64,000 nt of DNA from NCBI GenBank assembly GCA_030737835.1, contig CM060847.1, positions 22,369,304 through 22,433,303 of the forward strand, given 5' to 3'. This DNA comes from Acorus gramineus. Its lineage: Eukaryota > Streptophyta > Magnoliopsida > Acorales > Acoraceae. Below are positions 1-64,000 of the stretch, piece by piece. The first letter of the stretch is position 1. Each line of letters starts with the position of its first letter. The position numbers and the translations under genes are program-made. Under the pieces are notes generated by a model. That model had not been told where the DNA came from. It saw only the letters and a program-made list of their open reading frames with translations, and ran no database searches.

Positions 1-947
1 TGATCGTCACGGGCAATGATGAAGGAGAGGTTTCTAAGCTTCGGTCCGAGCTTTCCATTCGATTTGAGATGAAGGATCTTGGTGAGTTAAGTCATTTTCT
101 TGGCTTGGAGGTGGAGAAGGTGGACCTTGGGCTCTTCCTTTATCAAAAAGGCTATGCTAAAAGATTGTTGAGAGGTTTGGGTTGAACCAAAGCAAACGGT
201 GTTCCACTCCTCTCGATTCAAGCATGAAGATTGCTCGTAATGATGGAAAGCTTCTTCCGGACCCTCGCCCATATCGTGCTCTTGTGGGTAGTCTCATCTA
301 TTTGACTATCACAAGACCTGACATTGCATTCACTGTTGGACTCGTGAGCCGCTACATGCATGAACTGTGGAAACCACATTTTGAGGCGGCGAAACGCATT
401 TTGAAGTATGTGAATTCCACACTTGACTTTGGTCTTCTTTACAAGAAGAAAGTGGAGTTTTCTTTACATGGATTCATGGATGCCGACTTGGGTGGTGACT
501 CGGATGATCAGAGGTCTACATCCATTTATGTTTTCCTATGCGGATCAGCTGGGGTCTCTTGGTGTAGTAAGAAATAGGATTCTGTGTCTATTTCTGCTAC
601 GGAGGCGGAATACAAAGCTGCTACTTTTGCTTGTCAAGAGTGTGTGTGGCTTCGGCAGCTCATCGAGGATGTCCATTATAACATTCACAAGCCAACCACT
701 ATTCTTAGAGACAACCAAAGTGCTATTAAGCTTGCTATCAATCCGGTTTGTCACGCAAGAACCAAGCATATCGAGATCGAGCATTATTTCATTCATGAGA
801 AGGTGCTTGATGGAATGGTCAACGTGGAGGAGGTGCGAAGCAAAGATAATCTTGCGGATATCTTCACCAAATCTCTCTCCAAAGGGCCGTTTGAGTTTTT
901 ATGAGCAAAACTTGGGCTTGTACCCAAAAATTCACTTTAAGGAGGAG
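1..947 (+). pseudogene. Ty1/copia pol 3' end (RT tail and RNase H), decayed
   Basis: This is the end of a copia polyprotein, cut by the window edge. The frame opens just after the usual YVDD box, runs through reverse-transcriptase motifs such as FEMKDLGELSHFLG, then YRALVGSLIYL and TRPDIAF, and ends in RNase H with the motif SATEAEY and a late SKDNLADIFTKSL. It is broken three times: a one-base deletion near 168-170 shifts the frame, a TAG at 575-577 stands where the family usually has a glutamine codon, and a TGA at 902-904 stops it before the natural C-terminus. A purine-rich tract (GGAGGAG, 941-947) follows and abuts the LTR. It cannot make an active enzyme and is a fossil of an old insertion. 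The element's 5' part lies outside the window. Confidence 0.9.
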
Positions 948-2029
948 TGTGAAATTTTAAAGTGAACTTTGTTATCTTTCTATCTATTTTAGCCTTTTAT
1001 ATTGAGGGATGTAGTGAGGCAACTTTGTATTTTGTGTGGGGCACTATTGACTTACTTGCACAAGTGTTCATCTCCTACACTCTCCACTACCAACCACCTC
1101 ATTCATTTCACCACTTTCCCATAGCTTGACTTCCTATGTCACCCACCATATTTTTCATGACTTGGAAAACCAAATTGACCATCACTTTTCCAAGAACCCC
1201 ATTTACCTATACATGGACCACCAGTTCCCATAAGTCTTATATTTCCCTATGCATTGGTAAATCACATTGATCACCTTTTTCCAATATCTACACTTACCCA
1301 TGCATTGGTACACCACACAAGTTATTATGGACACCAACTTCCCCAACCTATTCCCCATACCAACCTTGCCTATAAAAAGAGACCCTCTCTGTCACGCCCC
1401 AGGGCGGTCGTCCCCGGGACGCGGCAAGTGTATATATGATATCAGTAAACAGGAGTTCAATAACATACTCACACAACAGCTAAAATGACATCACAGATAA
1501 AAGCAGGGCTGACATGATATATACACCAAATGCGGAAGCTAAAAAGACTGAATTTGTAATCAAAACATACTACAGACTCGATACATAATCATATGTCCTG
1601 TGAGAGCCAACATGTCCATATAAACACAAATACAATCCATACATAATCCAAACTAGGTGCCCAAGCACAGAAATATATACATACAACAAAGAGAAGGGTG
1701 TTGATGGCCTCAAAACTCGAGGGACGTGGCGCTACTCCGCTACTGGTGTAGTCGCTCGGGAAGTTCTGTTATATATGTGTCACTTTTTGGCCTATTGGCA
1801 ACCATTGGAGCATTTTTGGCAGTTTTAAAATTTTTAGTGTTTTTCGATCGGAACCGCATAATTTTGGACTGTTAGCTATCGTCCGAGTTAGAGGACTCCG
1901 ATTGAAAATCTAACTGCATATTATGTGTCCTGGTGCCGTTTTAAGCCACTCATGAAAATTTCATCGAATTCCGGCATCGTTTCCAAAAATTTCACAGTTC
2001 CGGGGCGTATCCGGGTTTTTAAGTCGCAC

Positions 2030-2042
2030 ACTATATAAAAGG
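2030..2042 (+). promoter_or_regulatory. TATA box of the large LTR (inner copy)
   Basis: ACTATATAAAAGG lies about 265 bp inside the LTR and is followed by a CT-rich stretch at 2085-2115, a typical plant core promoter and leader layout. The outer copy has a weaker, altered version near 7160-7175 on the minus strand. Confidence 0.5.
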
Positions 2043-2354
2043 AATCAAAAATATCAAATGCACTATTCATCATCCCCGACCTTGAGCTCTCTCTCTCCTC
2101 TCCTCCGTTTTTCTTCCGTTTGAGCCCCCTACACCCCTCAAAACCAAAAACCTAAAGCACGGGAAGTGTAGATCGGGTCCCGATCTACGCTCCGGTGTCT
2201 TCAAATCCGAGTTCCGACGATCCTAGCCTCCCCGACCTCCCCTTTTCGTCCTCTGATTTGGCCCATTTCGAAGGCCAAGCTAGATCGGGGCGCGAGAGGA
2301 CCGTTGAGAAGGGTTTCGGTGCGCGGAGAGCACCCGGTCACCTCTTCCTCCCCC

Positions 2355-3374
2355 TTGGTAAGCTTCTTTCCCTCCTTTTTCTTGTTTAGATGAATGCTAG
2401 GGGGGGGGGGTTTTGTGTTTGGGAGGTGGTCGGCGGCAGTGGGGGTCGTCGGAGGGCGGTCGGAGGTGGTTGGAGGTGGTCGGCGGCAGTGGGAGGGGTG
2501 GTTGGAGGTGCTCGGCAGGCAGGGGCACTGTCCCGGGCAGCAGGCAGCGGCGGCAGCGGCCCAGGCAGCGCGTAGGCTGGGCGCGTGCGGGGATGCGCGC
2601 GTGCGCGTGCGGGCGTGCGTGCGCGCGGCATGCGCGCGGGTGTGCGCGGTCTAGGGCTGGCAGTGCTGGTCGTGCTGGGTATGCTGGAGGGGTTGGCAGT
2701 GCTGGCGAGTGGGCTGGTGGCCTCGGGTAGCCCAGGCGCAGGGGCTGGCAGGGCGCGCACGTGCGTGCGCGCGAGCGTGCGCGCGGGCGTGCGCTCGGGA
2801 AGAGCTGGAGGCCAGCTAGGGAGCTGCGCGCGAGGTGCTAGTCGCGCTGGTCTGGGCGCGAGGAGCTGGTCGTGCGGGGTGCTAGTCGTGCGGACAGTGG
2901 CGGTGCGTGCGCGAGGTGCAGGCGGACAGTGGTGGTGCCGTGCGCGAGGTGATGGCCGAGCAGGGGAGGTGTGCGCGAGGCGCGGTGGGGCAGGCGAGGT
3001 GTGCGCGAGGTGCTGGTCGAGCAGGGCAGTGCGCGGCGAGGCGGCGGAGGTGCGCGCGGGAAGGTGCTGCGCGCGGGGGCCGTGCGGGGTGCTCGCGGGG
3101 CGGCGCGAGGTGTTTGGGGCGCTCGGGCTACTGCTGCGGGGCGCAGTGGATGCGCGGAGCCCCGGGGGCGGTGCGGCGGCGTGTCCAGGCGGCGGGCAGA
3201 GGGTTCGGCGGAGCACGGGATGTGCGGGCTGAAGCGCGGCGGTGCACCCGGGCGGTCGGGGGCCGTGCGGGTGGTTGCCGAGGGTGTTGGGTGTTTGTTG
3301 TGGGTTTTGGGTATTTATTGTGTATTATTGGATAGTTGTGGATTTATTCTAACCAGTTAATAACTTGTCTTGCA
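2355..3374 (+). other. Putative intron with GC-rich core inside the large LTR
   Basis: A donor-like GTAAGCTTCT follows CCCCTTG at about 2355, and an acceptor-like CTTGTCTTGCAG ends at about 3374. The outer copy keeps both signals at matching places on the minus strand (donor near 6834, acceptor near 5974), although the sequence between has diverged heavily. The interval is G-rich on the plus strand, dense in CpG and low in complexity; its open frames in every phase are a by-product of composition. A short exon-like piece follows (3375-3411), with another donor-like GTGAGTGGG at about 3412 and an acceptor-like TCTTTTCAG ending near 4456, also present in both copies. Splicing is an inference. 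Confidence 0.4.
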
Positions 3375-4184
3375 GATCCCGACGGACGGTCGCGCGTCGA
3401 CCCGATTTCCGGTGAGTGGGACAACCCAACCCAGTGTGGGAGGCGCTACATGCCTTGGGCGTGTACCGTCCTCCCCTGGGGCTTATAGTTAGTATTAACT
3501 GCTTTGATGTAATCCATGTATGCATGATGTGTGTGTAGAATTGCATGCCACCCTAGATTTTTGTGATAGGGACTTGCACCCTTAGGTTTGTGCATAAGCC
3601 GTGCATCCTGCCACCTCGCTATCATGCTAGGAAAGCCCGACCTGTGCATGCGTCCTATTAGTTTGATTTATTTAATTAAATGCAAACTGTATTAAATGAT
3701 AGCATGTTTAGGGAATATAGAGGGGGCCTTGCGAGGTTAACATTGAGACCCGGGTTAGGGTACTCCGTGTTCCTCGTTTGGTTGTCGGATGTCCTACATC
3801 GGGACCTCAGGTTACCCTCCCAAGGTCTCTATTTCCCCTTTATGTCGTATTTATTTCCCCGCATCCTGGTTATGCGCGCTGGTGGAATTCTGAGGAATTC
3901 GAGACATTAGAGTCGTAGAGATGTGCTGTCAGCGGATCCGAGTGGATCATATGCGATGGATAGGCTGTTCTGTTCCCCTCGTCGGATCCGTGTAGAGACT
4001 ACCTCGGCGTTAGACAGGTTGTCCCGTGCAGGGGCTCCCACTAGTAGGCGCCTCCTGATTTGGTGAAGGACTGTGCTGAACATGGGAGTGGCCAAACAAC
4101 CACGGAGTGAGGAGAGACTATCGGTGGACCAAGGGTAACCAACAGCCTAGTCAGTCCCAAGAGCCTAGGTCACCTGTTGAGAGG

Positions 4185-4315
4185 TGAGGGTGAGGGTATG
4201 GTGGGCCGGCGATGTGACGACCCACAGGATTATGAATGGATGATTATCAACCCGCTAAGTCCCAACATCCTAGGTCACCTGTTGAGGGTGAGGGTGAGGG
4301 TGAGGGTATGGGGTT
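4185..4315 (+). repeat. GAGGGT-type minisatellite
   Basis: Two clusters of GTGAGG/GAGGGT repeats at about 4185-4200 and 4280-4312 sit within repeated CACCTGTTGAG segments of about 95 bp. The outer LTR copy has the complementary clusters near 5030-5060 and 5140-5165. Confidence 0.6.
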
Positions 4316-7300
4316 CGGCGATGAACGAACCCCCGGATGGTGATATTATGCCACTTGTGGTTTATGACTTGCTTAAATGTGGTTAATATGAACTGTATGC
4401 ATGGGTTGTGCTATTCACTGAGCGTGTGGCTCACCCCTCGCATATTGTCTTTTCAGTGATCTCTGAGGGAGGAGCTTCCCGAGCGACTACACCGGCAGAG
4501 GGTAGCGCCGCGTCCCACGAGTTTTGAGGCCATCAGCACCCTTCTTTCTGTTGTACGTATATGTTCTGTGCTCGGGCACTTAGTTGGATTATGTTTGAGA
4601 TTTTATTTGTGTATATATGGGCATGTTGGCTCTCACAGGACTTATGATTATGTATCGAGTCTGTAGTATGTTTTTGACTACAGACTCAGTCTTTTAGCTT
4701 CCGCATTTGGTGTATATATTATGTCAGCCCTGCTTTTATCTGTGTTGTCATTTTAGTTGTTGTTTGTGGTATATTATTGAACTCTTGTTACTGATATCAT
4801 ATATACACTTGCCGCGTCCCGGGGACGGCCGCCCTGGGGCGTGACAGCTCCTCCTTCAAGTCCTCCTCAGTAATCACTGAAAAAGATTTTATGCGAGGGG
4901 TGAGCCACACGCTCAGTGAATAGCACAACCCATGCATACAGTTTATATTAACCACAATTTATAGCAAAGAGCCTCAAAGTGGCATAATCAATCACAAGTC
5001 CGGTGGGTCGCTACATCGCCGAACCACCACACCCTCACCCTCACCCTCACCCCTCAATAGGTGACAAAGGGTATTGGGACTTAATGGGCTGATAATCATC
5101 CATACACAATCCTGTGGGTCGTCGCATCGCCGGCCCACCATACCCTCACCCTCACCCCTCAATAGGTGACATAGGCTCTTGGGATTGACTAGGCTGTTGG
5201 TCACCCTTGGTCCACCGATAGTCTCTCCCCACTCCGTAGGTCGTTTGGCCACTCCCACATTCAGCACAGTCCTTCTACCAAATCAGGAGGTGCCTACTGA
5301 TGGGAGCCCCTGCACGGGATAACCTTTCTAACGCTGAGGTAGTCTCTACACGGATCCAACGAAGGGAACAGAACAGCCTATCCATCGCATATGATCCACT
5401 CGGATCTGCTGACAGCACATCTCTACAACTCTAATGTCTTGAATTCTTTCAGAATTCCTCCAGCGCGCATAACCAAGATGCGGGGAAATAAATAAGACAA
5501 AAATGAGGAAAAGAGACCTTGGGAGGGCAACCTGAGGTCCCGATGTAGGACATCCCGCCAACCAAACAAGGAACACGGAGTACCCTAACCCGGGTCTCAA
5601 TGTTAACCTCGCAAGGCCCCCTTATATTCCCCAAAGCATGCTAATCAGATCATAAGCTTGCATTTAATTAAATAAATCAAACTAATAGGACGCATGCATA
5701 GGTCGGGGCTTTTCTAGCATGATAACGAGGTGACAGGATGCACGGCTCATGCACATATCCTAAGGGTGCAAGTCCCTAACATACAAGTCTAGGGTGACAT
5801 GCATTCTACACATAGATCATGCTTGCATGGATTATAATAAAAACAGTTAATACCAACTATGTGCCCCAGGGGAGGACGGTACACGCCCAAGTGCATGTAG
5901 CGCCTCCTAACTGGGTTGGGTTGTCCCACTCACCGGAAGCTGAGTCTACGCGCGACCGTCTGTCGAGATCTGCAAGACAGGGTATCAACTGGTGAGTAAC
6001 AATCCACAATACCACAAAATACACAACAACAAACAAGTAAACACCCAACACTCGGGCAAACGTGCATACGGCCCCGTACGCACGCTAACCCAAGCACCCC
6101 GGCTCACTCCCGCACCCCCGGCAACTACCGGCACGGCAACCCGCCCCCGGATGCGCTGCCGCGCCACAGCCCGCGCACCCAGGCGCACCGCCGGCCCCTA
6201 CCCGCACGCCTGGACTTGCCTCTCGGGTGCACCGCGCGCCCACTGCGCCCAGCCTCCCGGGTGCACCGCGCGCCCACTGCGCCCCAGCGCAGCAGCCCGC
6301 GCGCACCCCGCACGCCTCGCGCCCTGTGCCTCGCCCCGCGCGCACCCCGCGTGCACCTCCGCTGCACTCGCATCGCTCCGCGCGCACCCCGCACGCACCG
6401 CCGACTCGCCCAGCACTCCACCGACTCCCAGCGCTCCACCGACTCCGCCGACACGCCCAGCGCCCAGCGCCCGCACGCCCAGCGCCCAGCACGCCCAGTA
6501 CGCCCAGCGCCCAGCACGCCCAGCGCCCGCACGCCCAGCACGCCCAGCACGCGCGCCCTGCTGGCCTCCAACTCCACCCGAGCGCACGCCCGCGAGCACG
6601 CCCGCGCGCGCCCTGCCAGCGGCTCCGCCTGCTGCGCCTGTGCTGCTGCCTGTGCTGCTGCCCTGCCCGAGACAGCAACCCCCATGCCCGAGCACCTCCA
6701 CCACCAATCCACCAGGCCACCAACGGCCTCCGACCGCCCCCAACCACCTCCGACAGCCACCCACAGCCGCCGACCACCACCCAACCCCAAAACCCCCTTC
6801 CTAACATACATCTAAGCCAAAAAGAAGAGGAAAAAGAGCTTACCAAGGGGAGGAAGAGATGTCTGGTTGCTCTCCGCGCACCGAAACGCTCCCCCAACGG
6901 TCTCTACCACCAAGACCTACTCCCACCTCCGATTTGGCTCGGATCTGAGGAGAAGAGAGGGCGGATGGAAGGGCTAGGTTGGCCGGAATCCGGATTTGAA
7001 AGCACCGGGGTGTAGATCGGGACCCGATCTACACTTTCTATGCTTTAGGTTTTTGGGTTTGAGGACTCTAAGGGGCTCAAATGGAGGTTTTTGAGAGAGG
7101 GAGAGAGAGAAAACAAAAGGTGGGAGATGATGAATAGTGCCAAGCAAATTTTAGATCTCATTTATATAGTCAAATCACTTAAAATTAGGGCTAAGCAAGA
7201 TTAAGGCTTGATTAGGGTGATTTAAGTAAGCTTTGACTTGGGTCAACCCAACCACACAAAAAGACAAAAAGGGTTGACCAAGTCATGGGCCCACTTTGAC

Positions 7301-7845
7301 CGAGTCAACTCTCCCAATGACTTCTCGCTCGGTCAAAACCCGGATACGCCCCGGAACTGTGAAATTTTGGAAACGTTACCGGAATTCGATGAAATTTTTG
7401 TGAGTGGCTTAAAGTGGCACCAGGACACATAATATGCAGTTTGATTTTCAATCGGAGTCCTCTAGCTCAAGACGATAGCTAACAGTCCAAAATTTTGCGG
7501 TTCCGATCGAAAAACGAAAAAAACTCAAAAACTGCCAAAATGCTCCAATGGTTACCAGCAGGCCAAAAAGTGACACATATATAACATTCTCCACCATTTC
7601 CACCAACTCAACTCAATCTAACTCACTCCACAAAAATCCCAACACCACCTAAAACATACACTTGTGCAAGCTTGTCTCTAGTAGCCCAATTTTGAATGTA
7701 AGCTTGTCTCTTGTAGTGAAATATAGTTGTCAATTTTTCCTCATCTTGGAGTTGTTCATTCTTCTTCTATTCTCGGTTGTAAGTCTTGGGCTAGTGTGAC
7801 TTTGATTGCACTATTCAAGAGCCTCGTGTTTCTCCACAATACACA

Positions 7846-10265
7846 CTCCATTCTCTAAAAAGAAAAATAACCCATCCAACACACCAACAATAGCTTGACC
7901 ATGAAAATCAATCAAAACAGAGAAAAAAATTCCATCCTAAAAAAATTCCAACCTAAAGCAGTGACATTGCTTATGCCCGGTCTCCTTCCTTAGCCACTCT
8001 TTATTTCCTATTATCCCCACCTACTTCAACCTCTTGTCTCCTAATGTCTCTCAATTTCAGCTCTTTTGTATCTTTCCTTTATGAATATGAAAGAACTACC
8101 TTTGCTGTAAAAAGAAATAAAATCAATGGAAAAGCACCACAAAAGTGGCCAACATTTAGACCACAAAAATAATGCACCAGTAGCATTATATGAATGTATT
8201 CCTATTGTCAAAAGAAGATTTTTCAATAACTAATGAAAAGATTTTTCAAATAACGTGCTTATAACACCCATTATATATATATACCCTTTCAAAGAAAAGA
8301 AAAACCTTCAATCAAATTCATTCTCTACTTTCTTGAAGAAAAAAAGGGTCGAGAGAATGATAAAACATTTTTGGGAAACAGTTTTTATTTTATTTGTTTT
8401 TTTTTTTAATTTTCCGTCTCCACTGCCGTCATTTTGTTGGTTTAGTCAACGTTAAAATAATGTTAAATATAATGTGAATCTCTAAAAACAGGTGGCACAT
8501 TGCGGACATAGGAGTAGCAGTGCTCCTATTCAGACGTAGGAGAAGCAGATTTTTGTCCCAGAGAGCCAATAAATGCACTCACACAACATACATATACCAA
8601 AATTACTCAAAATGATGTCACATCTATCATATTAATATATATTCTCATACACAAACAATTTGATTAAGATTATAGTTGTCCTTTAAACTTATCTGCATTT
8701 TACCCGAAGTTAAAAAAAATTTATTTTAACATTTTCTAATTAATTAAATAACAAAAAAAAAATCAAACAAAAAATTATTTATTTTACATGAATATCTATC
8801 TATTCTGTTACGTTATAGCTATTGGAACAAATAAATCTATAGCAACAAATCTGATTCGTAGCTGGCTCACGTGTATAATGGTATTGGCGTGTATAATGGT
8901 ATCGGTATTATTATTATTATAAATATTATTTTTGGTCTTTTGGGGTATAATGGACTGGTCCGGACTCCCAACATTTTCCATGGAAAAATTCTCATATGGT
9001 GGTGATATCTCAGTCTTTTCTTTCTTTGTTTCTCATTTATTTATATTTTTGATAAATAAGTTCATCCAATTTAGAGTTATATAGAATGAATTTTTTTAAC
9101 TTATAAGAAATATGATAAATCATTCAAACTGAAATCCGTAAGTAGAAAAATTGTTTGACCAATTAAAAAGTTAGAAGAACTTACTTTACAAGACATTGTC
9201 ATATCTACATATAACACGTCCTCTAATGCAATATGTCAAATCTCTAATGGATATATATATTATATTATGCAGTTGTATACTCTAGTAAGAAAGACGTAAT
9301 AATGTATGCATCAATCCTTTAGAATATGTTTTTTCTTTTTTTTTTGGTTAAAGCATGTATTTTAATACATTCAAATATGCATATCAGTAATATAACCTTA
9401 CGTGAAAATAGGTATTTTTATTAGATAAGTACATATTAGTTTAAATAAAATTCCGAACCTGTTTCATCTACAAATGTGTCCGCATGACTAAGTTTAACAT
9501 TTTTGTACTATATGTGTATGGTCACATCAAGCATCTCAATGAAGAACGTCTCTTATTATGTTGACCTAATTAACAAGAGATGGAAAAAGTGTGGTTCATG
9601 ATGTTGCCACACATTGTATTTATTAACAAATTGTATAATTGGAAGATGGGATTAGATTGACTGTCTTAATTTAACTTGCATGACATTTCTATTTTCTAAT
9701 CTCCTCAAAATAAAAATAAAAAAAACTAATCTCGTCCTTTAAGAAATAATTAGAACAACATTCATGAGCATATATATATACTATTTAAACCTTTTCAAAC
9801 TTCATTTTTTTTTTTTTTTATCATGAAAAGCTAAATGTGGTTTTGATCCCAATTTCGTGATTCGATCTGCATTTCAGAAATTTTAAGATTTATTAAAGCA
9901 GAATTTGCCTAAACGGGATCTAAATGGCTCCAAATTCCTTTTCCCTTCATAAATATATATCAAGAGTGTCATCCACTAGCATATATGAACATGAGGTTTC
10001 AAACATATAATCACTTCATAATCAAACTATTAATTGCAATACAAGAAGACACAGCTTGGATGCGCCATTTATTCTTACAATATCACCCTTTATTTTTATA
10101 ATAATCTCATGCCAGTATACCTTGCATGTCTTCGGTTCAAAATTGATAAGTGACACCTCACAGGTCTAGTACATGAGGTTAATTTATAGTATTTCTAATC
10201 ATGTTTTAGTTCTTCATATAAAGGATCTGATGAGATCTGACTAGATTCCATCTATACGAGTTGCG
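7846..10265. other. AT-rich intergenic DNA without a recognised gene
   Basis: No open frame of coding character was seen on either strand. The stretch holds poly-A/T runs, TA-rich runs and a short imperfect inverted repeat near 8490-8545 built on GTAGGAG/CTCCTA. It forms the 3' flank of the secreted-peptide gene on the minus strand. No target duplication or terminal repeat was found. Confidence 0.5.
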
Positions 10266-11708
10266 TCAACCATGGCCTGGTGGTTTCTCATAACGAGGAG
10301 CCTTTGGATAGGAAGTGCCACCAAGGTTGTAGTCATCACCATAGATTCCCTCAATAGTATATTTCTTTTCTGCATTTAAAAAAAAAAGAAAACATATACA
10401 ATTTGTGTGTCAATTAAGATTTATTTCACTTATAATAATCTTAACAAATCCATAATTATCATATATGCATGCATGTATAGCTTATCATCAAACACATAAA
10501 ACGTGTATGTATTTGAAAATGAAAAATGATATCTAGCCCCGTTTACAGCCTCGCCTTTTGTCTTCAACAATTTTGATTTTTTAAAATACATGTACATTCT
10601 CGCCTAATGTAGTACATAATATTATGAAAAGTAAAATAATAACCTAGATAAACTAATACATAAAAAAAGGAAAAAAAAAATAGAGCATACTCTGCATGCA
10701 CTAGTGAAATATATATAGCACCAAGATAGTATAAACTACCACTGGAGTGTATAGTCGATTGGGGATCATCTCCAAAAGCTACAAGCGAGAGACTACGTGT
10801 AGTAACCCTCGATTGGACACACACACACACACACAATATAGGGCATTTTTCACTTTTAACCCCCCAAAAATTTTAATTTAAAGTTTGACTCCATGTCAGT
10901 TTTAATTGTAATACAGGACTTGGGGTCACTTTGACCAGGTCAATGCTATCACCTCAGCGCTGAGTTGAATTTTTTTTTCTTTTTTACATATAAAAGGCAA
11001 TCACAAGTTTCTTTTGAATACATTTTTTTTAAATGTTTTTCAACTTCAATTTCTAAATTTATGGATAACTTTGATGGATTCACCATGGATTTTTTCTGTT
11101 TTCTATAAAATCTTTATCAAATCTATTAATCAAATATATCAATAAGAAAATTTAAAATTTTAATATTCAAGATTCAAATTTTAAATTTAGATAAAATAAA
11201 AAGTTAAAATTACGATAAGATTGTCTAAATTCAAATCAAATTTAAAATTAAATATTATTAAACAACATTTTAAATTTAAATTTTTTTAAAAATATGAAAA
11301 GAGATTTGTATATGAAATGTTATCACAAATCACATTCTAAGTAAACGTGATCCATAAATAAAGGGAAAAAAAATTCCATTCTAAGATGACAGTGTTGACC
11401 TAGTCAAAACCAATCAAGTGTCAGTTTTATAATAAAAATTAGATCATAGAAATTAAAATATAAAATAGGGTTAAAAATAAAAATTGCCCTACTATATATA
11501 TTCCAAGAAAATGATTGATGAATACTAGCCTACATATGAGACTGTAAATAGAACTTTATGTAACAACACAAAAAAAGAAAAAAGAAAAAAAAAACTCACT
11601 GGCATGGTCCGGCACCGAAGTCTCTGTAAGCTCACGCGCGGCCGATTTTGAAGAGAAGAGAGATGATGAAAGAAGGACTAACAAAACAAGGAAGGCCTTT
11701 GCAGACAT
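10266..11708 (-). CDS. Small secreted peptide precursor, two exons, 70 aa
   Basis: Exon 1 is 11708-11600 and exon 2 is 10369-10266. The donor is CCA|GTGAGT, the acceptor ATGCAG|AAAAG, and the junction falls inside a lysine codon, giving 213 nt in frame. Residues 1-24 form a classic signal peptide (MSAKAFLVLLVLLSSS, then LFSSKSAA). The mature part starts near RELTETSVPDHA, continues KKKYTIEGIYGDDY and ends in the proline-rich tail YPKAPRYEKPPGHG. A TATA box sits about 70 bp upstream of the ATG. The product is probably exported to the cell wall or apoplast. The acidic DDY and the Pro-rich end recall tyrosine-sulfated signalling peptides, but no known family signature is complete, and small secreted cell-wall proteins also start with an ARELTETS-like segment. 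Signal peptide, frame and splice sites are seen; function is unknown. The intron (1224 bp) holds a MITE. Confidence 0.7.
10841..11489. mobile_element. MULE-type MITE in the peptide-gene intron
   Basis: Terminal inverted repeats start GGGCATTTTTCACTTTTAACC and end with its near-complement (GGTTAAAAATAAAAATTGCCC). Flanking 9-mers CACAATATA (10832-10840) and TACTATATA (11490-11498) match at 7 of 9 positions, consistent with a Mutator-like 9-bp duplication. The interior is AT-rich with no coding sign. A CA dinucleotide run (10816-10834) abuts the left end. Confidence 0.65.
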
Positions 11709-11775: not shown

Positions 11776-11785
11776 CTATTTATAG
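11776..11785 (-). promoter_or_regulatory. TATA box of the secreted-peptide gene
   Basis: CTATAAATAG read on the minus strand, 68-77 bp upstream of the start codon, leaves room for a short leader. It is a near-perfect plant TATA element and supports the minus-strand gene model. Confidence 0.6.
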
Positions 11786-21215: not shown

Positions 21216-22417
21216 ATGGGGAATTTTTTTTTTTTTTTCATCATCAAATCTAAAATAGATTTGGATCCAAGATTAGTTCATGTTTTAAGAGTCCGATTGT
21301 ATTCTAGTCATATTTGTTTTTTGGATTATCATAAATCATTCTCGAACATTCAAATGTTTTTACTTATTAAAATAGAAAATGTTATATTCAATTCATTTTA
21401 TAATCCAAAACACAGAGAGTAGACATTTTAAAAAAAATATATATATATGTCTCATTTAATGAGATATGTATTTTTGTAAAATTCCAACGAGATATATAGC
21501 TCGTTATAGTGAATGGAAGGGGTTAACGAGTTATATGAGTGTGTTTATGATAGTAAAAAAGATGCTCAATCAAAATGTTGTTCTTACATAGAGCCTGTAT
21601 AGTGTTTTCTATGGGGGAAAAAAACCCGTGTATTTCTCATTCAGAGTACATGAATCTCAATACCTTATTAAGGGCATCCATTAATTAATTAAAGAAAAAA
21701 AGGACCTTAAGAAAATCAGAGCATTAGTTCATCTTACAAGCATGATTTATTTGTCATGATCTGTATGAAAATGTATGAGACATGACAAACAAACACTTTA
21801 TATAAGATCAAATTTATTGCTCTTCTTACACCCTGCTAATGTTAAATTTATATATAACACATTAATAAAAACAAAGTAAAAGTGATATAGATGACTATTG
21901 AGTTATGAGGGTATAAGATATTGGAGGAACTTTTAAATTAATCATAGATTGTCACCGAAATTCGCATATAAAAAATGTAATATGTGTGAGTTAGTTTTCA
22001 TTGATCCACATAGTTGTCTATGATTATGATGTGATTTAATACAACAAAAATAAATGATGACAATGTTAAATGGAGTTACATGTGGAAAATATTTATAAAT
22101 AGATAACTCTTTTTGACATTTAAACAAAATGAGGATAGAACTAAAAGAAACACAACATCTATGCTCTAATTTGGATTTAGATTATTTATGATTTTTTAAA
22201 AATTTATGACTATTAATTATTAGATCCCTGTATAATTCTCAAATTCTTTTTGGGAATATAAATCATATAGCTGAATTTGGTTTAGATAATTATTTATTTG
22301 GAAAACAATACTTTAGCCACATGTGCAGTCTCACAGCCCTCAACCATTTTGATTTTTTTAAAATATATACTCTATTAATGAAATACATACTATTATGAAA
22401 ATTAATAGCTAGAAAAA

Positions 22418-32699: not shown

Positions 32700-33145
32700 T
32701 CATCATAATGAAGAGGATTTAAAGATTAATACCTCATTGACAAAGGTCCACCGGCCATTATGCCTCAAATATGCTCCAGTTGTAGCAATATTGAGAGCAC
32801 CAATTTTATATATTCTCGTTGCCGAACAACGATTTTTTTAAAATATCATATAACTCAACTCAATGGCATAGCATCATTACCCGAAGTAAATGCATTTTAT
32901 TTTATGTTCGCCATGGAAGTTGTGGTCATGAATGATGAGATCATGATTTATATAGTTGAGAAAGCACAACAATCATAAAGTTTGTAAAATATCTCAAATC
33001 ACTAGAAGTGATTTGCTATTAAACAAAAGCATAATTGAAGGGAAAAGGGTTGCAGAACAAACCCCTAACACAAGGAAAATGATTGTTATGTATTTGGTGC
33101 TTTAAAAATATGGTCACGTACCTGATGTACGATCAGACTTTTATA
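32700..33145 (+). pseudogene. Decayed gag C-terminal remnant of the copia element
   Basis: Near 33083-33140 one frame resembles the gag zinc knuckle CX2CX4HX4C that precedes protease in copia elements, but the second cysteine is Phe, the histidine region is altered, and a TGA interrupts it before the last cysteine. Upstream, only short frames remain. A working capsid protein therefore cannot be made from this copy. The assignment rests on position and a weak motif. Confidence 0.45.
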
Positions 33146-33237
33146 ATTTTTATAATTATAATTTTTCTTTGTTATCTAAAATCCATTTTTCTTATTTTGT
33201 TTATCTTATTTATTTCATTTTCTTTTTTTTTACAAGA

Positions 33238-36200
33238 ATGGCTATGGTTGGTGACATTTGTCTAGCAGACAGCGCTACAACACATACGATCCTACGAAAT
33301 AAACAATATTTCTCGACATTGACATTAATCAATGCAAATGTTAATACCATTTCTGGTACTACGAAATTAATTGAAGGCTCCGGAAGAGCAAATATAATAT
33401 TACCAGGAGGTACAAAATTTTGTATTAATGATGCATTATATTCAGCAAGATCCAGAAGAAATCTGCTAAGTTTTAAGGATATCCGTCTTAATGGATATCA
33501 TATTGAGACTATCAATGAAAACAATATGGAGTATTTATGTATTACTTCAATTGTTTCAGGCCAAAAACATGTATTAGAGAAACTTCATGCTTTCTCATCT
33601 GGGTTGTATTATACAACCATAAAAACAATCGAATCATATGCTGTAATGAACCAGAAGTTCTATGATTCAGATATTTTTACACTTTGGCATGATCGTCTCG
33701 GGCATCCAGGATCTACAATGATGCGTCGAATAATTGATAATTCATTTGGGCATTCGTTAAAGAACCAGAAGATTCTTTTACCTAATCACTATCAATGCAC
33801 TTCGTGCTCACAAGGAAAATTGATAGTTAGACCATCCCCTACAAAAGTCAATGTTGAGTCACCAACATTTTTGCAAAGAATCCAAGGGGATATATGTGGC
33901 CCAATCCACCCCCCATGTGGACCATTCAAGTATTTTATGGTATTGATAGACGCATCTGCTAGATGGTCGCATGTTTGTCTATTATCCACTCGGAATGCTG
34001 CATTTGCAAGACTACTTGCTCAGATAATCCGATTACAGTCGCATTTTTCGGATTATCATATAAAGTCAATACGTCTTGATGGAGCTGGTGAATTCACATC
34101 GAAAACTTTTAACGACTATTGTATGTCGCATGGCATCGATGTTGAACACCCTGTTGCTCATGTGCACACCCAAAATGGATTAGCTGAATCATTTATTAAG
34201 CATCTTCAGCTAATTGCACGTCCTATGCTTTTGAGGACAAAATTACCCGTTTCAGCTTGGGGTCATGCTATATTGCATGCAGCAGCATTAGTTCGCCTTC
34301 GGCCAACTGCTTATCATCAATATTCCCCTTTACAGCTCGTACTGGGTCATCAACCAAATATTTCACATCTTCGAATTTTTGGTTGTGCTGTACAAGTTCC
34401 TATTGCCCCTACACAACGAACTAAAATGGGCCCTCAACGTCGATTGGGAATTTATGTAGGCTTTGATTCTCCCTCTATTATAAGATATCTTGAACCATTG
34501 ACAGGGGATGTTTTTACCGCTCGATTTGCGGATTGTCATTTTGATGAGACAATATTCCCGTCATTAGGGGGAGAAAATCCGTCGCCAGAAGAACGACGTG
34601 AACTTATATGGAAAACTCCATCTTTGTCTCATCTTGATCCTCGCACTAATCAATGTGAAACTGAAGTGCAAAGAATCACTCATCTTCAAAGAATTGCGCA
34701 TCAATTGCCAGATGCATTCAATGATGCAGCAAAAGTGATGAAATCACATATTCCAGCTGCTAATACTCCAGCTCGAATTAATGTTCCAATAGGAAAAACT
34801 GCTAATATGCCGGCTAATGAATCAACAAAAACACGCCTGAAGCGTGGAAGACCTATAGGCTCAAAAGATTCAGCTCCCCGAAGGAGAAAAACAATGAAGA
34901 ATAATTCTCTAGAAGAGTATGAAACACTTGAAAGACCCACAATAATAACTCCTATAGAGGAAGAAGTCCCTGAAGTGACACAAGTCCCTGAAGAGACTGA
35001 CGTCCCTGAAGTGACGCCCGTGCATGAAGAACAAGTACATGGAAATGAAGAAATTTCCATAAATTATGCAAATTCACAAATATTGTGGGATCGAAAGCAA
35101 GTGCTTGTTGATGATATATTCTCATTTGCAGTAGCTACAGAAATCATTTCAGATAATGATTTAGAACCACGTTCAGTGGATGAATGCAGACGAAAAAATT
35201 GTTGGCCACAATGGAAAGCTGCTATTCAAACAGAATTGGATTCACTTGCAAAACACCAAGTATTTGGACCAGTAGTCCTAACCCCTGAAGGTGTTAAACC
35301 AGTAGGATGTAAATGGGTGTTTGCGAGAAAACGAAATGAAAGAAACGAGATTGTTAGATACAAAGCTCGTCTTGTGGCACAGGGTTTCCTGCAGAGACCT
35401 GGGATAGATTTTGAAGAGACATATTCTCCTGTGATGGACACAATCACATTTCGGTATTTAATTAGTCTTGTAGTCTCAGAAGGACTTGACATGCAGCTAA
35501 TGGATGTGGTTACTGCATATTTATATGGAAAATTAGATACCGACATTTATATGAAAGTTCCTGAAGGACTAAAATTGCCTGAAGCAAAACCACGAAATAT
35601 GTACTCAATAAAGTTAAGACGATCCTTGTATGGATTAAAGCAATCTGGACGAATGTGGTATAACCGTCTTAGTGAGTACTTAATAAAAGAAGGATATGTC
35701 AATGATCCAATATGCCCCTGTGTATTTATTAAGAAAATGGAACTCGGATTTACCATTATTGCAGTATATGTTGATGATATTAATCTAATTGGGACTCCTG
35801 AAGAGCTCAAAAAGGCTTCCGAATATCTGAAAAAGGAGTTTGAAATGAAAGATCTTGGAAAAACAAGATATTGTCTCGGCTTGCAAATTGAGCAAAGTTC
35901 AAATGGGATACTTGTTCATCAAACAACATATGTTGAAAAAATCCTGAAGCGTTTTAATATGGACAAATGTCATCCATTAAGTACTCCAATGGTAGTAAGG
36001 TTACTTGACCCCAAAAAGGATCCTTTTCGTCCAAAAGAAGATACTGAAAATCTTCTTGGTCCTGAAGTACCATATCTTAGTGCAATTGGTGCCTTATTAT
36101 ATTTGGCCCAATGCACTAGACCTGACATTGCATTTTCAGTTAATTTATTGGCCAGATTTAGCTCTGCACCAACTCGAAGGCATTGGAATGGTGTGAAGCA

Positions 36201-36777
36201 CATTTTTCGTTATCTTCGTGGAACGTCAGACATGGGTCTATTCTATGCAAAGGATTCCAATAATGGTGCACAACTAAAGGGTTATGCAGATTCAGGATAT
36301 CTTTCAGATCCTCACAAGGCTCGCTCACAAACAGGCTATGTATTCACTTGCGGTGGCACAGCAATCTCTTGGCGATCTACGAAACAGACTTTGGTCGCCA
36401 CGTCTTCTAACCACTCTGAGATTCTTGCACTCCACGAAGCAAGCCGGGAATGCGTGTGGATAAGGTCTTTGGTTCATCATATTCGTACTGCATGCGGACT
36501 ATCTCTCATTACAGATGTTCCAACAACTATATATGAAGACAATGCAGCATGCATTGCTCAAATCAAAGGGGGATATATCAAGGGTGATAGAACAAAGCAT
36601 ATTTCTCCAAAATTCTTTTACACTCATGAGCTCCAGCAGAGACATGAAATTGATGTTCAACAAATTCAGTCAAAGGACAATCTTGCAGATTTGTTTACTA
36701 AAGCTTTGTCGACATCAACATTCAAGAAGCTGGTGTATGAAATCGGGATGCGACGAGTTTGCGACCAAAATTCTTGA
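33238..36777 (+). CDS. pol: Copia pol polyprotein, uninterrupted (about 1179 aa)
   Basis: The first ATG of the open frame is at 33238; the frame itself stays open from about 33169. Domains in order: aspartic protease with ADSATTH near residue 11 in place of the common DSGA; GAG-pre-integrase with HDRLGHP near 150 and a CTSC zinc pair; integrase with catalytic Asp, Asp and Glu near 237, 281 and 317, with the expected 35 residues between the last two; reverse transcriptase with the YVDD box near 844; RNase H with acidic residues in YADSGY, NHSEILAL and YEDNAAC. All main catalytic positions are present, so the enzyme part may be functional. The integrase motif reads RLDGAGEF, where the family usually has DNG. 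Since gag is broken, the element would need capsid supplied by a relative. Confidence 0.9.
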   Translation: MAMVGDICLADSATTHTILRNKQYFSTLTLINANVNTISGTTKLIEGSGRANIILPGGTKFCINDALYSARSRRNLLSFKDIRLNGYHIETINENNMEYLCITSIVSGQKHVLEKLHAFSSGLYYTTIKTIESYAVMNQKFYDSDIFTLWHDRLGHPGSTMMRRIIDNSFGHSLKNQKILLPNHYQCTSCSQGKLIVRPSPTKVNVESPTFLQRIQGDICGPIHPPCGPFKYFMVLIDASARWSHVCLLSTRNAAFARLLAQIIRLQSHFSDYHIKSIRLDGAGEFTSKTFNDYCMSHGIDVEHPVAHVHTQNGLAESFIKHLQLIARPMLLRTKLPVSAWGHAILHAAALVRLRPTAYHQYSPLQLVLGHQPNISHLRIFGCAVQVPIAPTQRTKMGPQRRLGIYVGFDSPSIIRYLEPLTGDVFTARFADCHFDETIFPSLGGENPSPEERRELIWKTPSLSHLDPRTNQCETEVQRITHLQRIAHQLPDAFNDAAKVMKSHIPAANTPARINVPIGKTANMPANESTKTRLKRGRPIGSKDSAPRRRKTMKNNSLEEYETLERPTIITPIEEEVPEVTQVPEETDVPEVTPVHEEQVHGNEEISINYANSQILWDRKQVLVDDIFSFAVATEIISDNDLEPRSVDECRRKNCWPQWKAAIQTELDSLAKHQVFGPVVLTPEGVKPVGCKWVFARKRNERNEIVRYKARLVAQGFLQRPGIDFEETYSPVMDTITFRYLISLVVSEGLDMQLMDVVTAYLYGKLDTDIYMKVPEGLKLPEAKPRNMYSIKLRRSLYGLKQSGRMWYNRLSEYLIKEGYVNDPICPCVFIKKMELGFTIIAVYVDDINLIGTPEELKKASEYLKKEFEMKDLGKTRYCLGLQIEQSSNGILVHQTTYVEKILKRFNMDKCHPLSTPMVVRLLDPKKDPFRPKEDTENLLGPEVPYLSAIGALLYLAQCTRPDIAFSVNLLARFSSAPTRRHWNGVKHIFRYLRGTSDMGLFYAKDSNNGAQLKGYADSGYLSDPHKARSQTGYVFTCGGTAISWRSTKQTLVATSSNHSEILALHEASRECVWIRSLVHHIRTACGLSLITDVPTTIYEDNAACIAQIKGGYIKGDRTKHISPKFFYTHELQQRHEIDVQQIQSKDNLADLFTKALSTSTFKKLVYEIGMRRVCDQNS

Positions 36778-42780: not shown

Positions 42781-45700
42781 CCGTGTTGCTACCTAGGCCC
42801 CAGAAATTAAACCCCAACCCCATTGGTAAGCCCCATTAGGTGACACAATCCTATTGATTATCTGATTGACTTTTTCAAATCATAAAAAAGACAATGACTA
42901 GAATACCCTCATGAGCAATTTAAAAATTGGCTCCAATTAATACCGCCATTAATCCTCGTTTTCAAAATCCCAAAAATCACGCGACCAAACAAACTGCAAT
43001 CATCTCCACCGAATAATCATATTTCAAAAAAATTAAAAAGTTAGGGTTTCAGAATTGGGAGAAAACATTCGAACACCACCAAAAAAAAAAAATCAGTTTT
43101 CAAGAGACAATATAATCCGTTCTCTTCCCCAACCTAATCGTCGACAATGGCGAAGAATAAAAGTTAGATTTCTTCCCACAATCAACTCTTCCTTGTCGAC
43201 GTTTTTTTTTTTTTTCTATAAAAAACATGACGATCGGATGGATTTATTCCACATCTTATACGAAAAATCTCTGATTTTCATGATCAAAATATGAGACGAC
43301 GCAATTCCAGATACATGAATCAGAAATCCGAACAAATTAGTTTATCTGGATTTTTTTTTGTTTTTAAAACAAATCAGTATTTCAGATACATGAATCTGAA
43401 AATTTGTTAGCAATATGAACAAATTAGTATTTCAGATACATGAATCTGAAAACCAAACAAAATAGTGAATCTGGAATTAATTTTTATTTTTTAGCAATAT
43501 AAACAAATTTTTTATTTCCGATTAGTGAATATGAAAATCAAACAAAATAGTGTATCTGGAATTAATTTTTATTCTGTAGTAATACAAACAAATCTAACTT
43601 TCAGATACATGATTCTGTTATCCAAACAAGTAGTGTATCTGAAAATGTGATGCAATGTATAAGGTTAACATGGGGCACCCACAATCTGAAATTAAATTTA
43701 GTGTATCTGTCTTTCAGATACATGAGTCTGATACCCAGTGTATCTAGAAATGTTATGCATATGTGAAGCCTAAGCTGTATCTGAAATAACAAACATCATC
43801 TATTAGTGTGGAATGTCACTGTTATGCATGTATCAGAAATATAAACATCTGCATTTTGTTTGTGAACTGCTGATTTATGTTTTAAGATACATATGTATCT
43901 TAAAAGAACAAAGTGCATGTCTATTTCATTGTAATAGGCATATCAATTGTATCTGGATGTGTATCAATATGATTTCTCAAATGATAATTTTTGGCAATTG
44001 AATATTAAACGTATTATGCAGAATCTAAAAAAGACAGAATTGCTTAACAACGAAGGAACCGCACATACTATCCGTAGTATAGATTTACATTACACATAAT
44101 ATTTGAAACGTTTGCAACATTGGAGTTGAGTAGGAGGCATTCAGATAACTCCATTCTGGAATTTATTCAAGTCCTTCATTGACCGGTCATACGATTATAA
44201 CAAAATGAAGAAAAATGATGATGATGTCATGTCCATCATCCAATCATTCGACCATAAGTCCAACAGCTTCAATATTGGTGGGAAGCTAATAAAAATTGAG
44301 TCTTCCAAATGAATTACACAGAATATTTGAAACGTTTTCATATCACATGCATCATGGATGTCTTCCAAATGAATTGAGTCTTCACATGTATCATCCATAC
44401 AATCGTCATCACTGCCTGCTGAAAAATTAGGAAGTTGTCACATGTTATATAATTAAGATACAGTACTGTATCTTAACAAAAAAAACAAACAATTTCATGG
44501 TCTACAAGCTAATTAGCAAAACACACATAGATTTTCAATGAAAGTCATTCAAGCCTTTATATAAATACGACAATAAGCAATTAAATATTAATCAGATAGG
44601 CATCAATCAAATCCATATAAATAATAAATCAAACTTCAATTGGGCTGGAAACAACATCAAGATACACATGTATCTGAAATTAAAATTAACATGTACATAC
44701 TTGATACTACTGAATATTGCAGAGGGCTGTTTGTCCAACACATTTGATGTTAATGTGTTTGTGAATTTCATTTTACATTGTCATAATGTTTGTTGTTATC
44801 AGATATACGTGGTTCATTTTCTACATCCATTACAATTTTGCAGATACACATAACAAAGTCAAAACACATCACAATTTCATATATGAATCACCTTTTGTTA
44901 TGCAAATTATACAAGTTTTCAGATACACATTTCAAATTCAGATACACTACAAATTTACTTTGACAGGTTTTCAGGTAGTACCAATTATTTACTATGTGAC
45001 AGATATAGCCAATCTTATATGATTCATTTCGAATTAAGATACACTTAATAAAAAGTTCAAGATTTTGTTAAGTATAGAGAACAAGCTACATGTTTCACTT
45101 CTTATGCACATCATATATACCAGGTACAGTTCACATACTCATCACATTGTAAGATACAATTCATCTTCTCAGATGAAAGTAAATCAGAAAACCTGTTTTT
45201 TTTTTCATAAACACCTCACAATAAGCAAATACATTCCACACACAATAGACATTGTATTTGTAATTTATATAGATGTCTAATAAAACTTTCAAATACACTT
45301 TCAAATTCAAGTACATCTGAATTGTATCATATATGATCTTAAACACAGAACCAAAAACCAATCAGTTGTTCATCAAACATCAACAATACTTTGAATACAG
45401 AATTTCATATCCAAACATCAACTTTTGCCTTCCATTTTTATCATTTTTCTCATGAATTTTGGCAATGTCAAATCCAACCTTGTGAGCAAAATCATTATAA
45501 AATAACCGTACCACATCTTCAGAATGAAAACACATCCCAATATATGGAATAGACTGTTCTGCACATGCTACAATCTCATCTACATTTTTCTGATCAGCCA
45601 AATCAGACAGTTCCTTCTGGTTTTCAGAGCACATGAATCATTGATGTCTTCCAAATAGATTGATTCTTCGCATGTGTCATCCATAAAATCATCATTACTG

Positions 45701-60706: not shown

Positions 60707-61999
60707 TCACCTGTTATTCCATTCCCATATACGTTCATAAACGCCCGATGATTCATGGTTTATCATACAATCCTCCGTTTGATGTGAAGCACTTCTCCTG
60801 AAGACAGCAATCTGTGAAGCAAAGCCCGGTTCCACCTCAGCCGACCCGCCAACCCCACCGAATTCAACACTGTAATTGTGTCTCGAGGCGAGGTTGGAAG
60901 CCCAGTGGTTGAACTGCTCTCTCGTCCATTCAAACTTGTGATCGAAGTTTCGGAATCTGCATTGCGAGGTCTGAGAGGGTTTATCATCCGCGTCTTCTTC
61001 TTTGTCGGGCAAAGCAGCTTTTTGAAGTATAGGATTGTATTCGTAGTTGGGGGTTGAGACAATGAGGAGATGCGGGCGGAAAGAGCCCAGCACGACTTCG
61101 CCGAACAAATGAGCCTGGTCTTCTTTCATGTGCTCAATTACCTGCACACTCTCACAGTGATCGGGACTTAATTTCAAATTTACAAGGCTCAATAAATTTT
61201 AAAAAAGGTCTGGGAGCTGTTAAATAATGTCCTAGGATGCACAGGACAAGCACCATGACACATCCTGGGCATGTGTCAGATACCTTATGTGTCCCAAATT
61301 AGAAATAATTTTCTCATTCTTGAACATAAATTAGATTTGGCATGGACATGACATGGACACGAATTTATATGGGACACAATATAATTTTTTTTCTTAATAG
61401 CTGAAGATTTATGCTCACATTAAACCAATTAAATTTTTTATAGAGTTAGTAGTTCATACAGTGTTATAGTCATTCAACTTATTGTGGTTTATAGATGTAT
61501 GTTTTTTTCCTAATAATCATAATATAAAATTTATTTATTTATGAACATGTATTTTTCATGTCAGTTCACCATGTACATATTGTGTTGTATCCATGTCCCG
61601 TGTCAATGTCCATGCTTCATAGATGATGCCTAGATCCCACGAATTTAAAAGAAATTGATATTATAGCTCAAAATTATATTATCTACCACCAAAAAAATAT
61701 GTTATTATTGATTGTTCATAATGATGAATGTCTCAGATTCATAGTCGAGGTAAGGCAATGTCTATGGGAATGATCCTCTTGAAGGAAGTGCATCTCATGA
61801 GGGGTTAACAAAAACTAATTGAAGTAGGCAAGGGAATAAGCATAGTTAATATGTGAATACACGTCTGCAAGTGTTTATACATTAAGAATATCTAGAATCA
61901 AATAACACAATCAACATACACTACCTCTCATCCCAGCAGTTTGGAATTGACTACAATGCCCATGAAATCCAAATTTCAACCACATTTTGACCCAGAAAA

Positions 62000-62068
<69 letters not shown>

Positions 62069-64000
62069 CAGGTTCTGGACAAATAAAAGGACTTGCAAAT
62101 GAACGAGAACATGCAATTGTAAGAATATAATTGTTAAACGCAAAACAATTAGAAACATAAAATGCTGGAAATAATTTAACTACATAATTAAAAGATGATT
62201 GGATCTGGCATGTCAAACTTTTTCTATAGTGAATGCAAAACACCCTCTAGTGAAAAAGATCACTATGTGAATAAAGCTAACTTCATTACAGATGAATTGG
62301 TAGAGAAGCTCAGTACCTCTAGACAAGTGCCGATATCAAAAGCATACAGCCGAGGATCAAAGTCAGTGATGGATCCATAATACAACTCCGCATATTTGAT
62401 ACTTGCATTTTGTATTCCATGATTAGCATTCATGCTTAGTTTCGAATGAATTGTCTGCAACATAAAAAAGAGGATGTGAATAATGCATGAAATGAGAGGT
62501 CAGATAAAAGAAAAAATGGAAATCAGCAGAGGTGAATCAAAATTTGAGAAAATATGGCAATCTAACATTTCCTGAAAAGCATTTCACGGAACAATAATTG
62601 ATTTACTTCATCTACCGTGAGAAGTGGTCTCTCATTTCTCATGATGCATGCATATAAAAAATGTGCTCAAAATATTATTAATTGCAAATCTTTCAAGTGA
62701 GACATAAACAGGTCAGAAGTCAGACCTTTGCAGCACGATTGAGACTCTTCCTTGATATATCAACGCCAACAATCTTTTGCAATGTAGTTGTATGCTCCAG
62801 TAAAGATTCCAATAAGCTTCCCGAACCGCACCCAAAATCTACCTGTACACATGCAAAAGCCAAAAGGTAAACATCATTCACCCCCAAGAAGCTTGGAGTG
62901 AGAATAATAAATACAAAGCTATAAATTTTACCAAGGTTGTGGCTTGGGACTCGCTGATATGCCGCAGCGCATACTCAACCCTCTGTTTAGATAAAGAAGG
63001 ACTGAAAAGAGCTTGCTCCATCCTGTCCTCCAATGGTTCTGTGACCCCCAGCAACTTTACAGAGTACTCCAAATAGCATGATTTTTCATTAAAAGAATCA
63101 GAGCCTGGAAACAAAAGAGCAGTTCATGGTCATCCTTAACCATTATGGACATTAAAACAAAATCTAGAAAGAATAACATACTCAGCAGTTGTGCAAAGTA
63201 CTTTGCAGATCCACCAGCAGCAGCTAAAATTAAGTCCTTCGACGGCAATGCTACTGAAAATCGAGCTTTTTGATTGATGGACAGCTGAGTGACGCATGTT
63301 TCAAGTTGGGGAGTCACAGCACCAGTCCCCACCTCAAATTCAAACTCATCCTTGCTTTCTAGAAGTTCCTTCATGTCTTCCCCTTCCCTAACCAAAGCCA
63401 CGGTATAACTTATGCAAGCTAAAAAACCCTGTGACGGGCTCACCCCTGAATCTGGACCTTCAATATCATAAAGTGTACAACTTTGATCTGACAAGCTGCA
63501 TTTTCTCAGAGCAATTCTTTTCTGAAACCCATGTATAGATAAACACAACTCAAATTCTTGACAAAATTTTTGTTGATTAATATGAATGCCCTGAACATAT
63601 CTGCAAGAAGATAATGTCCCCATAGGAGTAACTGGCTGCTTGAAATATTCATTTAACCACATGAGAACCTTTAGGGAGGCATTTTGGATGGCATCATTCT
63701 GTTTCCTGTAGGATTCTTCAGGAATGTACTCTAATATTACATCATTTCCCTTCGACAAAATGCAAACTTCACACCTAAAATTTCCAGCCATGCCAAATTG
63801 TTTATTGGAAGAATCAGGGACCACATCACTTCCAAATTCATCTTCCTTAACAGACTTTAGTGACTTGACACTGTCACACAATTTTAGTGTCATCGACTTA
63901 TGTTCCGAAGAGGATACAATGTCAGTCGTGTTTTTCAATGAGAAAGCAGGTTCCGATAAACGATGTTGACGACAAAATGTGCAGAGAAGTTCCCTAGGGG
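60707..64000 (-). CDS. HEN1: HEN1 small-RNA 2'-O-methyltransferase, C-terminal half (partial)
   Basis: Five exons on the minus strand: 64000-63182 (continues beyond the window), 63104-62932, 62842-62726, 62454-62317 and 61141-60707. All junctions are GT-AG and keep the frame. The first exon ends the second dsRNA-binding region (NDAIQNASLKVLMWLNEYF) and covers the PPIase-like domain (ESKDEFEFEVGTGAVTPQLE). The methyltransferase follows: S-adenosylmethionine loop VDFGCGSGSLL, then IVGVDIS, DIGTCLE joined to VIEHM, LLIVSTPNYEYN, FEWTREQFNHWAS, and RHNYSVEFGGVGGS. The metal-binding residues known for Arabidopsis HEN1 (Glu-x-x-Glu-His and a later His) are all present. The enzyme methylates the 3' ends of miRNA and siRNA duplexes in the nucleus and cytoplasm, protecting them from uridylation. 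The stop at 60707-60709 follows a short divergent tail. The gene looks intact within the window. Confidence 0.95.
62005..62066. repeat. (TA)n microsatellite in the last HEN1 intron
   Basis: About 62 bp of TA dinucleotides in the 1175-bp intron (61142-62316) that separates the exons ending DIGTCLE and starting VIEHM. It should be highly variable in length between individuals. Confidence 0.95.

Follow-up and report, generated by a model that had tools for sequence, protein, structure and literature searches.

Plant genomes encode several groups of small secreted proteins against which a new locus can be compared. Glycine-rich proteins (GRPs) of class I have been described as a signal peptide followed by (GGX)n arrays with a very high glycine content, and those of class II as carrying a Cys-rich C-terminus (PMC5852109). 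AtGRP3 requires its Cys-rich end for binding to WAK1 (PMC4777284), and in Chinese cabbage the genes described for GRPs of classes I and II consist of one or two exons (PMC7396569). In tyrosine-sulfated peptide families, as they are presented in PMC7913133 and PMC11534595, the domain starting with DY is conserved and the rest of the precursor is variable. In the PSY-type alignment of the former source, the set DY, N, H and P is present in 31 of 32 sequences (PMC7913133). Here we describe a small two-exon gene on the minus strand of a 64-kb stretch of Acorus gramineus DNA (the whole analysed stretch is called the window), and our best reading is that its product joins the many small secreted proteins of plants, a broad class with loose limits. 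The 70-residue protein is not listed in the protein collection that was searched, and within that scope the gene is unannotated, as had been proposed, and adds a product that the collection lacks.

The gene starts with an ATG at 11708 and stops with a TGA at 10268–10266. Its first coding exon (11600..11708, minus strand, 109 nt) encodes residues 1–36 and the first base of codon 37, comprising the leader and the beginning of the mature part. An intron of 1,230 nt (10370..11599, minus strand) starts with GTGAGT and ends with TGCAG, a GT-AG intron, and the second coding exon (10266..10369, minus strand, 104 nt) supplies the rest of codon 37, KKYTIEGIYGDDYN, the tail LGGTSYPKAPRYEKPPGHG and the TGA. 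The original prediction had two exons joining in frame across GT-AG sites into a 70-residue product, with neither exon above 110 nt, so that the gene would be invisible to single-frame scans, and all of this was borne out: the frame spliced at 11600/10369 translates to 70 residues (MSAKAFLV...KPPGHG), ending KAPRYEKPPGHG. The junction that it gave, 10370–11593, was half correct. Position 10370 does end the intron, but its donor was misplaced by about six bases and truly lies at 11600/11599. When eight donors were tried, with the last exon base running from 11596 to 11603, three of them kept the frame (11597, 11600 and 11603), and a GT at the intron start was found with 11600 only. Since 11600 alone keeps both the frame and the GT, the earlier model holds for the gene ends, the exon sizes and the encoded protein.

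Sequence patterns on both sides of the gene are consistent with this structure. A putative TATA box (TATAAA, 11779..11784, minus strand), found by a pattern scan upstream, lies 76 nt 5' of the ATG, and the predicted spacing is thus plausible. Two AATAAA polyadenylation-type signals (starts at 10094 and 10073; 10068..10094, minus strand) were found by pattern 3' of the stop. Both kinds of motif are placed as in a short gene, and such motifs alone are no proof of one. The region is AT-rich, with a G+C content of 0.28–0.30 between 8 and 12 kb. A comparison with Rfam gave no match at the gathering threshold. The intron stretch 10564–10634 resembles positions 22340–22405 of the window (71 nt, 76%, E = 3e-8), and the intron therefore probably holds a piece of a short dispersed repeat.

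The predicted product is a small secreted protein. Its leader is strongly hydrophobic, with 12-residue hydropathy windows up to +2.6, which agrees with the secretion that had been proposed from the sequence. The putative signal peptide covers residues 1–24 (11637..11708, minus strand), and its likely cleavage site, between SAA and RE, was placed by the small-residue (-3,-1) rule. The mature part would then have 46 residues, including 5 Tyr, 5 Pro and 6 Gly, with no Cys.

A single relative was found among about 5.77 billion proteins (6 candidates scored), the 79-residue QJS10_CPA01g00572 of Acorus calamus (E = 1.1e-19). This entry is a 'hypothetical protein' in NCBI and a 'Glycine-rich protein' in UniRef, and it carries a precomputed PF07172 assignment in the protein collection. 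In a tblastn comparison with the window, it matched each exon separately (E = 1.3e-4 for exon 1, E = 3.5e-5 for exon 2), and the A. calamus protein crosses the position of the splice junction unbroken, with a single additional residue immediately behind it (PDHAKK...TIEG). Because the homolog was found at this E value and each exon was matched alone, sequence comparison confirms the two-exon gene as real, beyond chance. The A. calamus entry is itself a genome annotation, so the match represents two genome readings that agree and is not a proof of expression. A profile built from both proteins scored 136 candidates, and QJS10_CPA01g00572 alone passed E = 10. These homology searches reach only relatives with shared exact 5-residue words; as far as the two word-based searches reach, the family appears restricted to Acorus, a lineage described as sister to the remaining monocots (PMC10282084).

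The A. calamus protein is probably a paralog from elsewhere in the genome. It is encoded on a 46.9-Mb contig, and the A. calamus HEN1 gene closest to the HEN1 gene of the window lies on a 35.0-Mb contig; it is from these different contigs, told apart by length alone, that paralogy is deduced. A translocation would look no different, nor would a HEN1 gene lost from the other chromosome. Within the 64-kb window, tblastn of the 70-residue query found no second copy of the gene. Apart from the gene's own exons, the best match (E = 0.054) falls inside the Copia-type frame, and the rest had E values of at least 1.

The two copies share a conserved first part and differ in their tails. Between these two sequences, which are the only ones behind the pattern and probably paralogs, 46 of the 51 window residues through DDYN are identical, with two single-residue insertions in QJS10_CPA01g00572. 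The identity is spread over the leader (22/24) and the mature part to DDYN (24/27). After DDYN, the window protein continues with 19 residues (LGGTSYPKAPRYEKPPGHG; 10269..10325, minus strand), unconserved save for the PGHG end, and the A. calamus protein with 26 (PNPTGPLPTPYPTTPPGYGGGYPGHG). The latter tail is richer in Pro and Gly and ends PTTPPGYGGGYPGHG, a GRP/PRP-like composition, and the mature A. calamus protein as a whole contains 9 Gly and 10 Pro, again with no Cys. This conservation pattern is a direct observation, as are the gene structure, the frame and the homolog.

Shuffling indicates how little the tails have in common. The global alignment score of the two tails was equalled by 501, 492 and 406 of 5,000 shuffled pairs under three gap settings, and the local score by 1,466, 1,002 and 808 of 5,000. 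Without the last four residues, 4,671, 4,591 and 4,407 of 5,000 shuffles were as good or better. The PGHG end is identical in both proteins and was reached by 87 of 200,000 shuffles; such sharing is unlikely by chance and suggests that the C-terminus is probably homologous and that the stretch between it and DDYN has turned over. Conservation of the DDY and of the tail had been expected together, and it holds for GDDYN, kept in the one relative, but not for the tail, which aligns little better than shuffles. The idea that the Pro-rich tail is a peptide-hormone domain is not supported by two tails that differ in both sequence and length (19 vs 26 residues).

The relationship to GRPs is loose. 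Of the Pfam families, GRP (PF07172) matches both full-length proteins best, if weakly, and both fall short of its gathering cut-off of 30 bits, the window protein with 16.2 and QJS10_CPA01g00572 with 26.8. Once the leaders are removed, the mature parts match no Pfam family in either protein. The leader fragment alone scores 17.7 bits against GRP for QJS10_CPA01g00572 and 12.0 for the window protein, for which GRP is the last of four chance-level matches. As the match disappears without the leader, the label 'glycine-rich protein' is mostly about the leader. No NCBIfam match was found for either protein. What the window protein shares with PF07172 GRPs (classes I and II, such as AtGRP3) is the weak leader match to the start of the profile and, by sequence, a small secreted product; its exon number lies within the one or two of the class I and II genes of Chinese cabbage. 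In contrast to class I proteins, it is devoid of GGX or GGXXXGG repeats and has 6 Gly in 46 mature residues. Unlike class II proteins, with their Cys-rich C-terminal domain, neither mature protein contains a Cys. The window protein may thus work like a small GRP-type secreted protein, one that scores below the bar of the curated family.

We favor, with moderate confidence, a small, lineage-restricted, Tyr/Pro/Gly-containing secreted protein that is probably associated with the cell wall and whose tail evolves freely. In this reading, the nuclear Acorus gene is functional and encodes the 70-residue pre-protein, whose leader (residues 1–24) would direct it into the secretory pathway and then be removed, leaving a Cys-free mature protein of 46 residues. 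The first half of this protein would be the conserved RELTETSVPDHAKK..TIEG(I/V)YGDDYN, and the second half a low-complexity tail of Pro, Gly and Tyr that can vary freely. In the apoplast, it may act as one of the loosely defined wall-associated 'glycine-rich proteins', with Tyr/Pro-rich contacts or cross-links holding it in place. We infer here that the gene is expressed and its product secreted, and likewise the cleavage site, the wall location and the role. In our reasoning, such a protein is expected to combine a short, conserved acidic and Tyr-containing segment with a variable tail of Pro, Gly and Tyr, and tails near the shuffle level are expected of low-complexity wall proteins. Support also comes from GT-AG exons that join in frame, from plausibly placed TATA and AATAAA motifs and from a homolog filed as a GRP. 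The assignment to the wall is weakened because the GRP score is below threshold and comes mostly from the leader, because there is no GGX array and only 6 of 46 residues are Gly, and because the conservation of RELTETSVPDHAKK..TIEG.YGDDYN exceeds the need of a purely structural filler. A small cell-wall protein was one of two options offered by the original prediction, and the favored reading agrees with it.

A signaling role is one alternative to weigh. The protein could be the precursor of a tyrosine-sulfated peptide, with TPST acting on the Tyr of DDY, a subtilase cutting before DY and the resulting 22-residue DYNLGGTSYPKAPRYEKPPGHG binding a receptor kinase, which we consider quite unlikely. 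The GDDYN motif is kept in QJS10_CPA01g00572, and the Asp at -1 is compatible with the account in PMC7913133 that TPST prefers a Tyr with an acidic neighbor at -1 or +1. From DY to the end, the window protein has 22 residues, inside the 21–24 given for mature CIF peptides (PMC11534595), and the terminal PGHG is identical in both copies at a frequency of 87/200,000 shuffles. Yet conservation is lowest after DY, and the count from DY to the C-terminus rises to 29 residues in QJS10_CPA01g00572. The conserved part is the propeptide and not the putative peptide, the reverse of known families. Compared with PSY precursors, the window protein has a predicted leader, Asp-Tyr and downstream prolines in common but differs in the order of DY, N, H and P and in a post-DY part that is unconserved between copies. 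PSY membership was rejected when this order was tested, as DY is followed by N51 and by the sole H at residue 69, with no P behind it. CIF/TWS1 peptides, compared on DY and on length, share a DY with it (22 residues to its end, against the 21–24 of PMC11534595 for mature peptides) but differ by their conserved C-terminal domain, which the two copies lack; the CIF family has two conserved hydroxylated prolines, and prolines are present in the window protein. A conserved C-terminal peptide domain of the PSY, CIF and RGF type was not found in these two sequences, which are probably paralogs with tails near shuffles. The CIF and PSY likeness that had been proposed is reduced to the acidic residue beside the Tyr and a compatible length. 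The single comparison thus appears to make a peptide hormone less likely, and because the tail is unconserved, an ordinary protein of the cell-wall type is likelier than a new hormone. DDY with a Pro-rich tail is insufficient to call a sulfated hormone when the first relative shows that it is the tail that can vary. A variant in which the conserved TIEG(I/V)YGDDYN with a sulfated Tyr is itself the signal of an Acorus-restricted family of secreted peptides, and the tail a disposable spacer, seems very unlikely; it would represent a further kind of sulfated-peptide precursor beside PSK, PSY, RGF and CIF, with its conserved element upstream of and including DY. Sulfation of the conserved GDDYN, if it were shown, would mean that precursors are laid out in a new way at the base of the monocots.

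Three further explanations concern the conserved segment, the shorter tail and the gene itself. The active part might be RELTETSVPDHAKK..TIEG.YGDDYN, with an irrelevant tail, in a secreted defense peptide or another apoplastic protein, an unlikely reading in our view. It draws on the 24/27 identity of this segment in two copies that are probably on different chromosomes, and on a chance-level match of QJS10_CPA01g00572 to a defensin-like family (E = 0.43) that runs through the leader. However, the signal peptide is equally conserved (22/24), so a recent duplication may explain the identity, and the mature part matches no Pfam family and no solved structure at E below 0.1: among PDB sequences, there were six matches with E up to 1, all to ISW1 remodeller chains and at chance level (best E = 0.13). 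The mature part has no Cys and, with 7 Lys/Arg against 7 Asp/Glu, lacks the cationic character that is common among antimicrobial peptides of plants. The shorter tail and the lower mature counts of Gly (6 vs 9) and Pro (5 vs 10) relative to QJS10_CPA01g00572 would also be compatible with a decaying and dispensable GRP paralog, a copy of the A. calamus type that has lost its Gly/Pro-rich tail in transposon-rich surroundings. Such decay is very unlikely given an open frame with no stop or frameshift, intact splice sites, and TATA and poly(A) signals. That two meaningless open stretches were spliced by chance is scarcely credible; nothing except the shortness of the exons speaks for it, and the homolog at E = 1.1e-19, with the exons matched separately, refutes it unless the A. 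calamus prediction is the same artefact.

The rest of the window contains repeats, transposon-like frames and part of another gene. A large imperfect palindrome occupies 1885–7468, with eight nested inverted-repeat pairs around about 4.7 kb whose arms are 74–94% complementary, and its G+C content reaches 0.61 per 2 kb compared with about 0.3 beyond. Its appearance is that of a foldback-type element or of an inverted duplication, with long frames inside that are GC-rich and of low complexity. The Copia-type polyprotein frame at 33106–36774 (plus strand; 1,202 residues from a TTG at 33169) contains, by eye, integrase- and reverse-transcriptase-like stretches. A second Copia-type reverse transcriptase/RNase H was recognized by eye at 182–904 (plus strand), in fragments split between frames, and a short frame at 45383–45637 (minus strand) resembles, also by eye, the FAR1-type DNA-binding region of transposase-derived proteins. 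A gene for the small-RNA 2'-O-methyltransferase HEN1 is represented at 60707–64000 (minus strand) by its C-terminal part, 559 residues from five joined exons. This part is 96% identical to an A. calamus HEN1, and among the best 120 of 407 matches, those outside Acorus reach at most 60%. At least five matches are from Acorus; among those listed are two A. calamus copies (on contigs of equal length, 35.0 Mb) and two of a more distant Acorus lineage at 72–76%, which suggests that HEN1 has been duplicated in Acorus.
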